Shown piece after piece: positions 10,565 through 14,306 of a DNA stretch of 37,779 nt. The notes under the pieces were generated by a model. It was given only the letters and a program-made list of their open reading frames with translations, had not been told where the DNA came from and searched no databases. The DNA comes from Saprospiraceae bacterium (GTDB taxonomy: Bacteria; Bacteroidota; Bacteroidia; Chitinophagales; Saprospiraceae). Location of the stretch: positions 1 through 37,779 of the forward strand of contig JAGOHC010000010.1 in NCBI GenBank assembly GCA_017996375.1, read 5' to 3'. The position numbers and the translations under genes are program-made. Position 1 is the stretch's first letter. Each line of letters begins with the position of its first letter.

Positions 10565-10638
10565 AAAAAAAGTATTTAATATAATATATTAATAATCAAT
10601 TATTTACAAATATTGATAAAATTTATTTTTTATAAACA

Positions 10639-10671
10639 CTTGACAATGTCCATTATTTGCCGATACATTTG
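10639..10671 (+). promoter_or_regulatory. Promoter of the cysteine operon, near-leaderless
   Basis: CTTG at 10639-10642, a 21-nt spacer and TACATTTG at 10664-10671, matching the Bacteroidota TTTG / TAnnTTTG pattern well. The sequence after it is TGGT and then the ATG of the first leader peptide at 10676. The transcript would therefore begin at or within about 3 nt of the leader start codon. The arrangement TTTG-n-GGT-ATG is the same as at 6712-6724. Confidence 0.6.
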
Positions 10672-10675
10672 TGGT

Positions 10676-10741
10676 ATGATTAACAAAAATTCCATATCGT
10701 TTGTAGCATCTTGTTGCTGTTGTCTTTCAACTCATCGTTGA
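10676..10741 (+). CDS. Leader peptide 1 with four consecutive Cys codons
   Basis: 21 codons: starts Met-Ile-Asn-Lys-Asn, then FVAS, then four Cys codons (TGT TGC TGT TGT, 10712-10723), then LSTHR and TGA. It is too short for ordinary gene finders. There is no fold or signal; the peptide appears to exist to be translated. It sits between a promoter and an intrinsic terminator. Its stop codon is the first triplet of the antiterminator arm (10739-10747). These are the hallmarks of an attenuator leader peptide sensing charged tRNA-Cys. Confidence 0.85.
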   Translation: MINKNSISFVASCCCCLSTHR

Positions 10742-10818
10742 GGAGATAACGGCTGTCAGTAATACAAGCAGATATAGTCAAAAAAGTCTTCTCACATTGA
10801 GAAGACTTTTTTGTTTTT
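10725..10818 (+). promoter_or_regulatory. Attenuator 1: alternative hairpins and terminator
   Basis: Region 1 TTTCAAC (10725-10731) pairs with region 2 GTTGAGG (10737-10743). Region 2 extended, TGAGGAGAT (10739-10747), pairs over 9 consecutive positions (two G-U) with GTCTTCTCA (10786-10794), which is the 5' arm of the terminator. The terminator itself is a 15-bp stem, 10780-10794 with 10798-10812, loop CAT, then GTTTTT. A ribosome held at the Cys codons covers region 1 and leaves region 2 free, so 2:3 forms and transcription continues. A ribosome that reaches the UGA covers region 2, so 3:4 terminates. All pairings were checked base by base by eye; no folding energies were computed. Confidence 0.8.
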
Positions 10819-10843
10819 ATCAAAAATTTAATGTTTTAATACA

Positions 10844-10930
10844 ATGACTTTTTCGTCCATATTTCATAATAATACTTGCTGTTGCTGTTGTACGATTTCA
10901 ATGCGGAAGGGCAGGTTTATTATGCAATAA
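10844..10930 (+). CDS. Leader peptide 2 with five consecutive Cys codons
   Basis: 28 codons beginning Met-Thr-Phe-Ser-Ser, then HNNT, then five Cys codons (TGC TGT TGC TGT TGT, 10877-10891), then TISMRKG and on to TAA. It follows the first terminator and precedes a second one, repeating the plan of leader 1. The peptides share no similarity outside the Cys run, which argues for selection on the Cys codons rather than recent duplication. It has no other recognisable feature. Confidence 0.82.
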   Translation: MTFSSIFHNNTCCCCCTISMRKGRFIMQ

Positions 10931-10990
10931 TGTTCAAAAGTGTATAAACTAATTACAGCCTTTCTGCAACGCGGGAAGGCTGTTTTATTT
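10904..10990 (+). promoter_or_regulatory. Attenuator 2: antiterminator and terminator
   Basis: The terminator is a 12-bp stem (10955-10966 with 10972-10983, two G-U pairs), loop CAACG, followed by TTTTATTTT. Its 5' arm GCCTTTCTG (10958-10966) pairs over 9 consecutive positions (two G-U) with CGGAAGGGC at 10904-10912, which begins 12 nt after the last Cys codon of leader 2. This is the same geometry as attenuator 1 (15 nt). Differences: I see no good region 1:2 hairpin, and a ribosome at the stop codon (10928) would only reach the edge of the antiterminator, so masking probably comes from translation through it. The first structural gene starts 26 nt downstream. Confidence 0.72.
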
Positions 10991-11016
10991 TCATCAAAAT
11001 TAAAATCTTAATCCTT

Positions 11017-11376
11017 ATGAATACTTTAGCATCAACAACACTACACTCGCTGCCAAAAATTGGAGACACTGCACCTGATTTTACAGCTGTTACCACGCTC
11101 GGCGAAATTAGCGCTGTTTTTATCATTGACCCGAAAGGTGTTGTCAGGTTATTAGTATATTACCCGCTAAACGTAGGAAGAAATATTGAAGAAATAAAGC
11201 GCGTTTTGTTAGCCTTGCAAACTGCGGACAAACACGCCGTTGCACTGCCGGCAAACTGGCAAGAAGGAGAAAAGGTGATTGTGCCCGCACCTAAAACCTT
11301 GGCCGATATTGAGCGTAATGATGCCGCCGATTATGAAAAAATTGACTTCTACTTGCAAAAGAAACACCTGAATTAA
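11017..11376 (+). CDS. 1-Cys peroxiredoxin remnant lacking the catalytic core
   Basis: 119 aa. The start (KIGDTAPDFTAVTTLGEI) is the N-terminus of a Prx6/AhpC-like peroxiredoxin. The rest (AVFIIDPKGVVRLLVYYPLN, VGRNIEEIKRVLLALQTADK, PANWQEGEKVIVPAPK) is the C-terminal half of a 1-Cys peroxiredoxin, usually about 210-220 aa long. Roughly 100 residues between them are missing in frame, including the PxxxT-x2-C peroxidatic site. The product contains no cysteine at all and cannot be a peroxidase. The reading frame stays clean, so it is either a young in-frame deletion or a kept non-catalytic protein. It is the first gene after the attenuators and is 33 nt before the cysteine synthase gene. Confidence 0.75.
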   Translation: MNTLASTTLHSLPKIGDTAPDFTAVTTLGEISAVFIIDPKGVVRLLVYYPLNVGRNIEEIKRVLLALQTADKHAVALPANWQEGEKVIVPAPKTLADIERNDAADYEKIDFYLQKKHLN

Positions 11377-11409: not shown

Positions 11410-12357
11410 ATGTCAGTAACACATTACCAGCCCGATACTATCCAACACATCCAAAGTGCTGCCCTCAAAGTGGCGACACTCATCGGCAAAACACCCTTGT
11501 ACCCGATACGACACATTTATACAAAAAAGGGGGTAAGCATTTTGGCAAAGTTGGAATGGCAGCAGCTCGGCGGCAGCATCAAGTCGCGTCCGGCATTTAA
11601 TATTATCATAAATGCAATAGAGCAGGGGCAACTTCCGGTAGGTAAACAACTGTTGGATGCTACCAGCGGTAACACAGGTATTGCTTATGCCACCATTGGG
11701 GCAGCTTTGGGCATTCCGGTTACGCTGTGCTTACCCGAAAATGCCTCCGAAGAGCGGAAAAATATTTTGCAATCATTAGGAGTTAATATCATTTATACAT
11801 CGCGTTTTGATGGTACTGACGGCGCACAGCTAAAAGCAAAGGAGCTGTTTGCGGCGCAACCTGACCGCTATTTTTATGCCGACCAATACGCTAATGATGC
11901 CAATTGGCGGGCACATTACGAAACTACGGCAAACGAAATATGGAATCAAACTGCGGGACAGATAACACACTTTGTTGCCGGATTAGGTACAACAGGTACG
12001 TTTGTCGGCACGAGCCGCAAATTGAAACTATTAAATCGCAACATCCAAACTATAGCCTTGCAACCCGATAATCCAATGCACGGCTTAGAGGGTTGGAAGC
12101 ACTTGGAAACTGCCATTGTGCCAAAAATTTATGATGCTGCCGTTGCTGACCAATTTATTGAAATTGATACCTTAGAAAGTTATGATTTGATAAAACAAGT
12201 TGCACAAAAAGAAGGCTTGCTGCTATCGCCTTCTGCAGCAGCGAATTTGGCGGGCGCAATAAAAGTGGCGGAGCAAATTGAGCGAGGCATAATTGTCACA
12301 GTTTTTGCAGATAACTCCGATAAGTATAGTGAAGTTTTAAAATATATTTTTAATTGA
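11410..12357 (+). CDS. cysM: Cysteine synthase (CysM-like, PLP-dependent)
   Basis: 315 aa fold-type II PLP enzyme that replaces the acetyl or phosphate group of an activated serine with sulfur. The PLP lysine is Lys58 in GGSIKSR, the substrate loop is TSGNTG (85-90), the phosphate-binding loop is GLGTTGT (191-197), and the C-terminal Ser contact lies in LLSPSAAANL. The neighbours (JAMM peptidase, ThiS/MoaD-like carrier, E1-rhodanese) match the mycobacterial CysM-CysO-Mec pathway, in which the sulfur donor is a protein thiocarboxylate. Whether the serine substrate is O-phosphoserine or O-acetylserine cannot be decided here. The next gene begins 2 nt after its stop. Confidence 0.88.
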   Translation: MSVTHYQPDTIQHIQSAALKVATLIGKTPLYPIRHIYTKKGVSILAKLEWQQLGGSIKSRPAFNIIINAIEQGQLPVGKQLLDATSGNTGIAYATIGAALGIPVTLCLPENASEERKNILQSLGVNIIYTSRFDGTDGAQLKAKELFAAQPDRYFYADQYANDANWRAHYETTANEIWNQTAGQITHFVAGLGTTGTFVGTSRKLKLLNRNIQTIALQPDNPMHGLEGWKHLETAIVPKIYDAAVADQFIEIDTLESYDLIKQVAQKEGLLLSPSAAANLAGAIKVAEQIERGIIVTVFADNSDKYSEVLKYIFN

Positions 12358-12359
12358 TT

Positions 12360-12800
12360 ATGAATAAATTAGTTATAGAACCTTCGGCTGTTGCTGATAT
12401 TTTTGACGACGGTATCGAGGCATTTCCCAACGAGTGCTGCGGCTTTTTATATGGTGACGAAACTGCCGAACGAAGAATTATCACTATTGCCCAACCAGTC
12501 ATTAATAAGAAAGAAGGCGACCAACGCCGTCGCTTTCAAATAGCTCCATTAGATTATATCCGCGCCGAACAATTTGCCATTGCAAACAATGTGCAGTTGC
12601 TTGGTGTGTATCATTCACATCCATTGCATCCGGCAATCGCTTCCGAACACGATTTAGAAAAAGCAATGCCTTACTTTTCATATATCATTATTTCCGTTTT
12701 TGAAAATGAAGTGCGCGATATTAAATCGTGGCGATTATACGACGATAAACGAGAATTTTATGAAGAGCAAGTGCAATGTATAGCACCCCAAACAATTTAA
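12360..12800 (+). CDS. JAMM/MPN zinc metallopeptidase (Mec-like)
   Basis: 146 aa from ATG 12360. The JAMM motif is complete: Glu25 in NECCGF, His85 and His87 in HSHP, Ser95 and Asp98 seven and ten residues later (H-x-H-x7-S-x2-D). This small prokaryotic form corresponds to Mec of mycobacteria, which frees Cys from the CysO-Cys adduct, and to QbsD, which trims two residues from a carrier C-terminus. Both jobs are possible here because the carrier two genes on ends in GG followed by two extra residues. Tight coupling to the synthase gene supports a shared pathway. Confidence 0.88.
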   Translation: MNKLVIEPSAVADIFDDGIEAFPNECCGFLYGDETAERRIITIAQPVINKKEGDQRRRFQIAPLDYIRAEQFAIANNVQLLGVYHSHPLHPAIASEHDLEKAMPYFSYIIISVFENEVRDIKSWRLYDDKREFYEEQVQCIAPQTI

Positions 12801-12861: not shown

Positions 12862-13140
12862 ATGGCAAAAATTATCATTCCAACACCATTACGCAAATTT
12901 ACTGACAACCAAAGTTCGTTTCAAACAAATGGCGATACCGTCAAAGAAGCGATTGCACAACTCATCGAAACATATAATGGTTTAACCAAACACCTTCTGG
13001 ATGACAATCAAAATATTCGCTCTTTTATTCGCATTTATGTAGGTGAAGACGACATCCTGTCGCTCGAAAAAGAAGATACCAAAGTAGCAGCAGATACGGT
13101 TATCAGCATCGTGCCTGCCATCGCCGGTGGAAGCAAATAA
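12862..13140 (+). CDS. ThiS/MoaD-like sulfur carrier (CysO-like), ends GGSK
   Basis: 92 aa ubiquitin-like fold: begins AKIIIPTPLRKFTDNQSSF, has GDTVKEAIAQLIETY in the helix, RSFIRIYVGEDDI in the second hairpin and VISIVPAIAGG at the end. The active carrier must end in Gly-Gly to be adenylated and turned into a thiocarboxylate, but here GG (89-90) is followed by Ser-Lys, so it needs proteolytic maturation. The protein has no cysteine. It lies 61 nt after the peptidase gene and 32 nt before the E1 gene. Confidence 0.88.
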   Translation: MAKIIIPTPLRKFTDNQSSFQTNGDTVKEAIAQLIETYNGLTKHLLDDNQNIRSFIRIYVGEDDILSLEKEDTKVAADTVISIVPAIAGGSK

Positions 13141-13172: not shown

Positions 13173-14306
13173 ATGAGTACATTAAATCCGCAAGAATTAA
13201 CGCGATACAGTCGTCACATTGCCATACCGGAGTTTGGTGTAGCCGCACAAGAAAAGCTCAAAGCTGCCAAAGTATTGGTCATAGGTAGTGGCGGTTTGGG
13301 CAGCCCCGTGTTGTTGTATTTGGCAGCAGCCGGAGTAGGGCATTTGGGCATCGTAGATTTTGATATAATAGATGATACCAACTTACAGCGCCAAGTTTTA
13401 TTTACTACAAATGATGTGGGCAAGTCAAAAGCAGCAACAGCCAAAGAACGTTTGCTGGCATTGAATCCACACATTCAGGTGACGGTACACGACACACGCT
13501 TCACTAAAGAAAATGCTATCGAATTAGTAAGCCAATACGATGTTGTTGCTGACGGTACAGACAATTTCCCTACGCGCTATTTAGTAAATGATGCCTGCGT
13601 ATTAGCCGGAAAGGTGAACGTGTATGCCTCCATTTTTCGCTTTGAAGGACAGGTATCCGTGTTTAATTTTCAAAATGAAGATGGTACAAGAGGGGCAAAT
13701 TATAGAGATATGTTTCCGGCACCGCCACCACCCGGATTAGTGCCAAATTGCGCCGAAGGCGGCGTATTGGGCGTGTTGCCCGGCATCATCGGCAGTATGC
13801 AAGCAAGCGAAGTTATTAAAGTAATTACAGGCGTTGGCGAACCATTATCGGGCAGGTTGTTTTTATTCGATGCGGCGAGTTTTACCACGCGCATCCTGAA
13901 AGTAAATAAATTGCCTGAAACAAAAATTACAGAGTTGATAAACTACGAACAATTCTGTGGCATTGAACCGATAACCGATGAACGCCCACTTAAAGAAATT
14001 ACGCCGACAGAACTCAAACTGTGGTTAGATAAAGGTATAGATTTTCAACTCATTGATGTACGTGAACCATTTGAATACGGCATTGCAAACCTCAGTGGCG
14101 AACTGATGCCTTTGGCAACCATTACCGAAGTTGCCGATAAAATTGCCACCGACAAAAAAGTGGTGATACACTGCAAAGGTGGTGTGCGTAGCGCAAAGGC
14201 TATTCGCGCATTGGAAGCTATTCGCACATTTGATAATTTATACAACCTCAAAGGCGGTATTTTGGCGTATGCCAAAGAAATAGACAATGCCATACCGCTA
14301 TATTAA
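13173..14306 (+). CDS. E1-like adenylyltransferase/sulfurtransferase with rhodanese domain (MoeZ/MoeBR type)
   Basis: 377 aa. The E1-like domain (1 to about 250) has GSGGLG at 38-43, Arg73 in NLQRQ, Lys86 in GKSKA, Asp130 in DGTDN, and Cys193 in PNCAEGG. The C-terminal rhodanese domain (about 275-377) has LIDVREPFEY and Cys334 in IHCKGGVRS. It would adenylate the carrier C-terminus and deliver sulfur from the rhodanese persulfide. The structural zinc site of MoeB is absent: the usual CYRC reads NYRD (176-179), and no second CxxC follows. That is a variant I associate with Bacteroidota homologues. It is the last gene of the operon. Confidence 0.9.
   Translation: MSTLNPQELTRYSRHIAIPEFGVAAQEKLKAAKVLVIGSGGLGSPVLLYLAAAGVGHLGIVDFDIIDDTNLQRQVLFTTNDVGKSKAATAKERLLALNPHIQVTVHDTRFTKENAIELVSQYDVVADGTDNFPTRYLVNDACVLAGKVNVYASIFRFEGQVSVFNFQNEDGTRGANYRDMFPAPPPPGLVPNCAEGGVLGVLPGIIGSMQASEVIKVITGVGEPLSGRLFLFDAASFTTRILKVNKLPETKITELINYEQFCGIEPITDERPLKEITPTELKLWLDKGIDFQLIDVREPFEYGIANLSGELMPLATITEVADKIATDKKVVIHCKGGVRSAKAIRALEAIRTFDNLYNLKGGILAYAKEIDNAIPLY

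Follow-up and report, generated by a model that had tools for sequence, protein, structure and literature searches.

What controls a cysteine biosynthesis operon that is preceded, in a Saprospiraceae bacterium, by short open reading frames (ORFs) with runs of cysteine codons? In the window, the 37,779-nucleotide stretch of DNA analyzed here as a whole, the intergenic region at 10565-11016 is flanked by an M15 D-Ala-D-Ala dipeptidase-like gene on one side and the cysM operon on the other, and holds two units arranged head-to-tail, each composed of a leader ORF, an antiterminator arm, and a terminator. The operon, entirely on the + strand, comprises a peroxiredoxin remnant (11017-11376), a cysM-type cysteine synthase (11410-12357), a Mec-like JAMM (Prok-JAB) protease (12360-12800), a ThiS/CysO-like sulfur carrier (12862-13140), and a MoeB/MoeZ-like E1 enzyme with a rhodanese domain (13173-14306). 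The first gene is a 1-Cys-type peroxiredoxin in which about 100 internal residues, including the catalytic Cys, are deleted in frame; relatives in the same place at four other loci (L132, L137, L114, and L092) are full length, and the deletion could reflect a true remnant or an assembly error. Judging from the sequence and its comparison with relatives, we consider it very probable that the intergenic region contains two consecutive ribosome-mediated, cysteine-responsive transcription attenuators that sense charged tRNA-Cys.

A first-pass annotation of this DNA had described a single attenuator, and all of its elements were found where it had placed them. Leader ORF 1 (MINKNSISFVASCCCCLSTHR; 10676-10741, + strand), which is corroborated by homologues, has 21 codons with four Cys in a row at codons 13 to 16 (10712-10723) and ends with TGA at 10739-10741. 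It is followed by the strong terminator that had been claimed (terminator 1, segments 3 and 4; 10779-10813, +), with a stem of 16 bp and a T tract reaching to about 10818; a terminator scan of the region found 2, versus 0.2 in shuffled sequences. The antiterminator 5' arm, segment 2 (TGAGGAGAT; 10739-10747, +), forms nine pairs, two of which are G-U, with the segment 3 core (GTCTTCTCA; 10786-10794). This 2:3 pairing has a p of 0.02 against spacer shuffles and gives an antiterminator of -12.8 kcal/mol. Segment 1 (10716-10731, +) consists of the last Cys codons and TTTCAAC and is able to sequester segment 2, as had been proposed: the minimum-energy fold pairs TTTCAAC with GTTGAGG. Folding of the RNA at 10676-10820, a check suggested by the earlier annotation, yields a z of -7.65.

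What did not hold is that this attenuator is the only one at the locus, since an equally complete second unit at 10844-10983 had gone unnoticed. Leader ORF 2 (MTFSSIFHNNTCCCCCTISMRKGRFIMQ; 10844-10930, +) has five Cys codons at 10877-10891, and its segment 2 (GCGGAAGGGC; 10903-10912, +) is complementary at ten positions, G-U included, to the segment 3 core (GCCTTTCTGC; 10958-10967) of terminator 2 (10955-10983, +), which has a T-rich tail. The pairing has a p of 0.005, the antiterminator a free energy of -20.4 kcal/mol, and the fold of the unit a z of -4.19.

Transcription would start from a promoter that was absent from the earlier annotation (10640-10671, +), made up of a -33 region, TTGACA, at 10640-10645 and a Bacteroidota -7 box, TACATTTG, at 10664-10671. 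The -7 box of the phylum is TAnnTTTG, with the G at -5 in Flavobacterium (PMC6847099), and is placed at -12 to -5 in PMC9723704. Because 4 nt separate the window box from the ATG, +1 is predicted at 10676, on the A of the leader 1 start codon. Among first leaders, a 4-nt spacing between box and ATG is seen more often than any other (16 of 80, allowing at most one mismatch), and it is rare in second leaders (1 of 22). Spacings of 4 to 7 nt occur in about 30 of the 80 first leaders, and in the others the box lies roughly 19 to 25 nt upstream. We predict leaderless initiation for the window and for a good share of its relatives. Little or no 5' UTR is rare among transcripts of the phylum: 3.7% of Bacteroides thetaiotaomicron transcripts have a 5' UTR of under 10 nt, and leaderless transcripts are put at 5.5% in Flavobacterium psychrophilum (PMC9723704).

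To see how widely the arrangement is kept, homologous operons were located via the JAMM gene in 46 of 199 genomes of the order, in 21 of 395 genomes of the class (five of them weak), and in 80 named loci in GTDB contigs. Once duplicates were removed, 91 operons had 350 nt or more of sequence ahead of the first gene. Under a strict rule, namely, a short ORF that begins with ATG and has three or more Cys codons in succession, within 520 nt, a poly-Cys leader precedes 80 of the 91. The same rule applied to other amino acids returned 1 to 6 operons each, except for Leu, whose count of 27 most likely arises because the TGY run is read in another frame. Six more leaders are gained by admitting a GTG start, a greater distance, or a contig edge, bringing the count to 86 of 91. 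Carriers belong to the Saprospiraceae, Chitinophagaceae, Flammeovirgaceae, Cyclobacteriaceae, Crocinitomicaceae, and other Flavobacteriales; cultured ones include Pseudoflavitalea rhizosphaerae, Niastella yeongjuensis, and Flexithrix dorotheae. A contig labeled Rhodopirellula (Planctomycetota; L110) has a Bacteroidota-type operon and a leader nearly identical to those of Flavobacteriales and is thus probably misbinned. No poly-Cys leader was found in five of the 91 operons: L136, L147, L153, L155, and L156 (CysM-JAMM). At least two of these five have another gene directly upstream; in L153 and L156, cysM comes immediately after the end of a short gene, so the operon may begin earlier.

Intrinsic terminators follow 100 of 103 leader units, versus 2 to 5 of 103 in shuffled sequence. 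They lie 41 to 95 nt past the last Cys codon and usually well before the next start codon (more than 400 nt in one case). Their presence bears on the possibility that control is exerted on translation, as in mycobacteria, at the access of ribosomes to the first gene, with the hairpins incidental. According to a review, it is the translation of downstream genes that the mycobacterial poly-Cys leaders affect (PMC9031893), and the cysteine leaders of actinobacteria lack terminators (PMC1262725). Here, however, nearly all units pair a hairpin with a U tract at a distance from the next gene that is usually generous, and Shine-Dalgarno sequences are absent from Bacteroidota mRNAs (PMC6847099), which therefore offer no such element to mask; we regard translation attenuation as improbable.

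The antiterminator of a transcription attenuator is evident across the family as well. The stretch most complementary to the terminator 5' arm mostly begins 9 to 23 nt past the Cys run, and in alignments segment 2 forms a conserved block soon after the Cys codons. Segment 2 pairing surpasses dinucleotide shuffles at p ≤ 0.05 in 46 of 100 units (5 expected) and at p ≤ 0.01 in 22 of 100. Several classes of terminator arm occur (CTTTCC, CTCCAC, CTCAC, and others), with segment 2 matching the arm of its own class: the mean pairing score is 15.7 with a unit's own terminator arm versus 11.7 with swapped arms, with 0 of 5,000 permutations as high, in a comparison that does not control for relatedness, so that the changes of class may go back to a small number of events. 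Alignment within the CTTTCC class gave no 2:3 covariation in excess of shuffles because its arms hardly vary; our argument for 2:3 pairing is built on the between-class swap test rather than on within-class alignment covariation. The terminator helix has a weak covariation excess. Before segment 4 is made, the antiterminator state has a median of -15.6 kcal/mol, versus -19.1 kcal/mol for the terminator. In 94 of 100 units the stop codon lies no earlier than the start of segment 2, so a terminating ribosome would mask segment 2, and in 99 of 100 a ribosome at the stop would reach segment 2. Homologous operons without a Cys-rich leader or the alternative pairings would have spoken against the attenuator; what the homologues hold is a leader in nearly every operon, a terminator in nearly every unit, and 2:3 pairing above both shuffles and swaps.

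The protector helix is less clear-cut. The 1:2 pairing claimed earlier stands in the fold of the window, and across units it has moderate support: segment 2 is at least half paired upstream in 82 of 100 folds (mean z, -0.83; p, 1.5e-8), and contiguous 1:2 pairing reaches p ≤ 0.05 in 14 of 100 units. The leaders themselves use mixed Cys codons (TGT 367, TGC 122) in runs of 3 to 7, which may be interrupted by whole foreign codons, e.g., CCCACCCC, CCCTCCC, and CCTCCCCC. Apart from the Cys run, the peptides fail to align, and they share little besides that run and an initial M. An ATG is in frame in 100 of 100 units versus 8 and 27 in the other frames, a count that follows from how units were selected and is only illustrative. 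By sequence comparison, the conserved entity appears to be the Cys codons rather than a peptide or an RNA motif.

These features also weigh on a reading, very unlikely in our estimation, in which the Cys-rich ORFs code for functional metal- or redox-binding microproteins and each hairpin is an ordinary terminator serving an upstream gene or a small RNA. Cys-rich peptides can bind metals, and there could be an independent RNA of about 140 nt with its end at 10813; yet the promoter sits between the upstream gene and leader 1, both tandem leaders own a terminator, the peptides have little in common beyond M and the Cys run, and the 2:3 pairing follows the terminator arm. Less likely still is control of the terminators by a riboswitch or T-box, a metabolite- or tRNA-binding RNA with the ORF as a by-product: such RNAs also use terminator/antiterminator switches, but no Rfam family matched at the gathering threshold (there were weak matches below it), the alignments have no conserved domain besides the Cys codons and pairing arms, and the Cys run varies in length and tolerates other codons within it.

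Ribosome-mediated transcription attenuation remains our preferred reading, and the first-pass view of a cysteine attenuator in Bacteroidota is supported by the leaders, the terminators, and the 2:3 pairing. Since the arrangement stands ahead of nearly every related cluster examined in the phylum, ribosome-based sensing of cysteine shortage is probable. From leaders, terminators, 2:3 pairing, stop-codon placement, and operon content, all established by comparison, we infer the following course of ribosome stalling, termination, and relief. RNA polymerase would start at, or within one nucleotide of, the first ATG, so that leader 1 would probably be translated as a leaderless message; leader 2 would depend on internal initiation without a Shine-Dalgarno sequence, as is usual in the phylum. 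With ample cysteine, the ribosome would pass the Cys codons to the stop and cover segment 2, and the terminator (3:4) would form. When cysteine is scarce, a ribosome stalled in the Cys run would cover segment 1, segments 2 and 3 would pair, and transcription would go on. As the operon encodes CysO-dependent cysteine synthesis, the loop would amount to end-product feedback.

RNA polymerase must pass both terminators, so the tandem arrangement should multiply two read-through probabilities, which may give tighter repression and a wider range. Tandem units are found in 22 of 81 homologous operons analyzed. On a CysM-plus-JAMM tree, the tandem label requires 13 changes, at least nine of them on well-supported branches; doubling has therefore been gained or lost repeatedly. 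The median distance from Cys run to stop codon is 18 nt in the first leaders of pairs, versus 36 nt in second leaders and 39 nt in single ones.

Beyond the cysM operon, the unit of leader, antiterminator, and terminator also precedes OAH/OAS sulfhydrylase (metY) genes (L209/L289, L220/L277, L273, and L283); in the L209 metY leader, the -7 box again lies 4 nt ahead of the ATG (TATACGTTTG-CAAT-ATG). A poly-Cys leader and terminator precede a cysC-cysD-cysN operon (L222/L287; G129 C87), and a seven-Cys leader and terminator precede a gene (L219/L288; L288:1370-2576) for a 347-aa protein that, by eye, looks like an ATP-grasp ligase, with a possible link to cysteine or thiols. Use of the leader before other sulfur genes is sporadic: the unit occurs in 3 of 30 metY loci of the order and in 0 of 30 cysD loci. 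On this count we rejected the idea that the regulon generally includes cysD operons, and 18 further cysD regions gave only the known G129 case. At 86 control loci containing TGY runs, the detector scored none but genuine leaders, and in the window's own genome, where nearly all of 60 TGY runs were checked, there was no credible leader beyond the window pair. A genome-wide search of 395 plus 199 genomes with the pattern TTTG-N4-ATG-N6..36-(TGY)4 gave mostly chance matches, as reading frame was not enforced; the matches in frame and filtered by a terminator comprised one new metY leader and otherwise known ones. A search with a GGAAAGG-type pattern, which is blind to other arm classes, added three more leaders.

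Like the trp, his, and leu attenuators of Escherichia coli, the units have runs of codons for the end product, mutually exclusive segments 1 to 4, an intrinsic terminator, and a biosynthetic operon; they differ in responding to cysteine, in a predicted leaderless start, in the presence of two serial units, and in a phylum without Shine-Dalgarno initiation. Regulatory codons for the end product, an intrinsic terminator, a 2:3 antiterminator, and the stop placement are all as in trp-type attenuators, and this sequence evidence supports the view that the Bacteroidota units would work like them, protector helix aside. In Salmonella mgtCBR, each of two ORFs senses a different signal. That system likewise has one leader with two short ORFs for one operon (PMC3641672), but both Bacteroidota leaders carry runs of the same codon.

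In the open-access literature searched, cysteine leader peptides were previously described only in Actinobacteria, without terminators, which left their control mode unclear. Leaderless poly-Cys ORFs of mycobacteria were reportedly described by Canestrari et al. in 2020. Such ORFs are discussed in PMC9031893, PMC9094748, and PMC13236596, and a leaderless start is predicted for many Bacteroidota leaders too. The mycobacterial leaders and the actinobacterial ones of PMC1262725 also resemble those described here in their contiguous Cys codons, short upstream ORF, and sulfur genes, whereas a conserved terminator is missing from the actinobacterial leaders, for which translation attenuation is the mode given. 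Bacteroidota leaders come with a full terminator and antiterminator, often twice, and precede a different gene set, cysM-JAMM-cysO-moeB; they are not of the mycobacterial type insofar as terminator absence defines it. Within Bacteroidota, PMC9723704 proposes leader-peptide attenuation in F. psychrophilum, with "strong clues" upstream of amino acid operons; the structured leaders include pheA and hisG, and cysteine is absent from the main text for these. The first-pass statement that no such attenuator was known for the phylum thus stands for the cysteine type, of which we found no report in the open-access literature, but not for leader-peptide attenuation as such.

On balance, we lean toward regarding these units as a Bacteroidota cysteine attenuator family independent of that of Actinobacteria, with leaderless poly-Cys ORFs and full terminators, recurrently doubled as an AND gate (one signal, two ribosomes, one transcript) and sporadically placed on other sulfur genes. 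The family would be the complete four-segment version, kept across many families, and would offer a direct test of the coupling between leaderless translation and transcription. Tandem units that switch often on the tree provide a natural experiment on the double reading of one signal. In many uncultured Bacteroidota, the leaders would identify the CysM-JAMM-CysO-E1 operon as a pathway that responds to cysteine.
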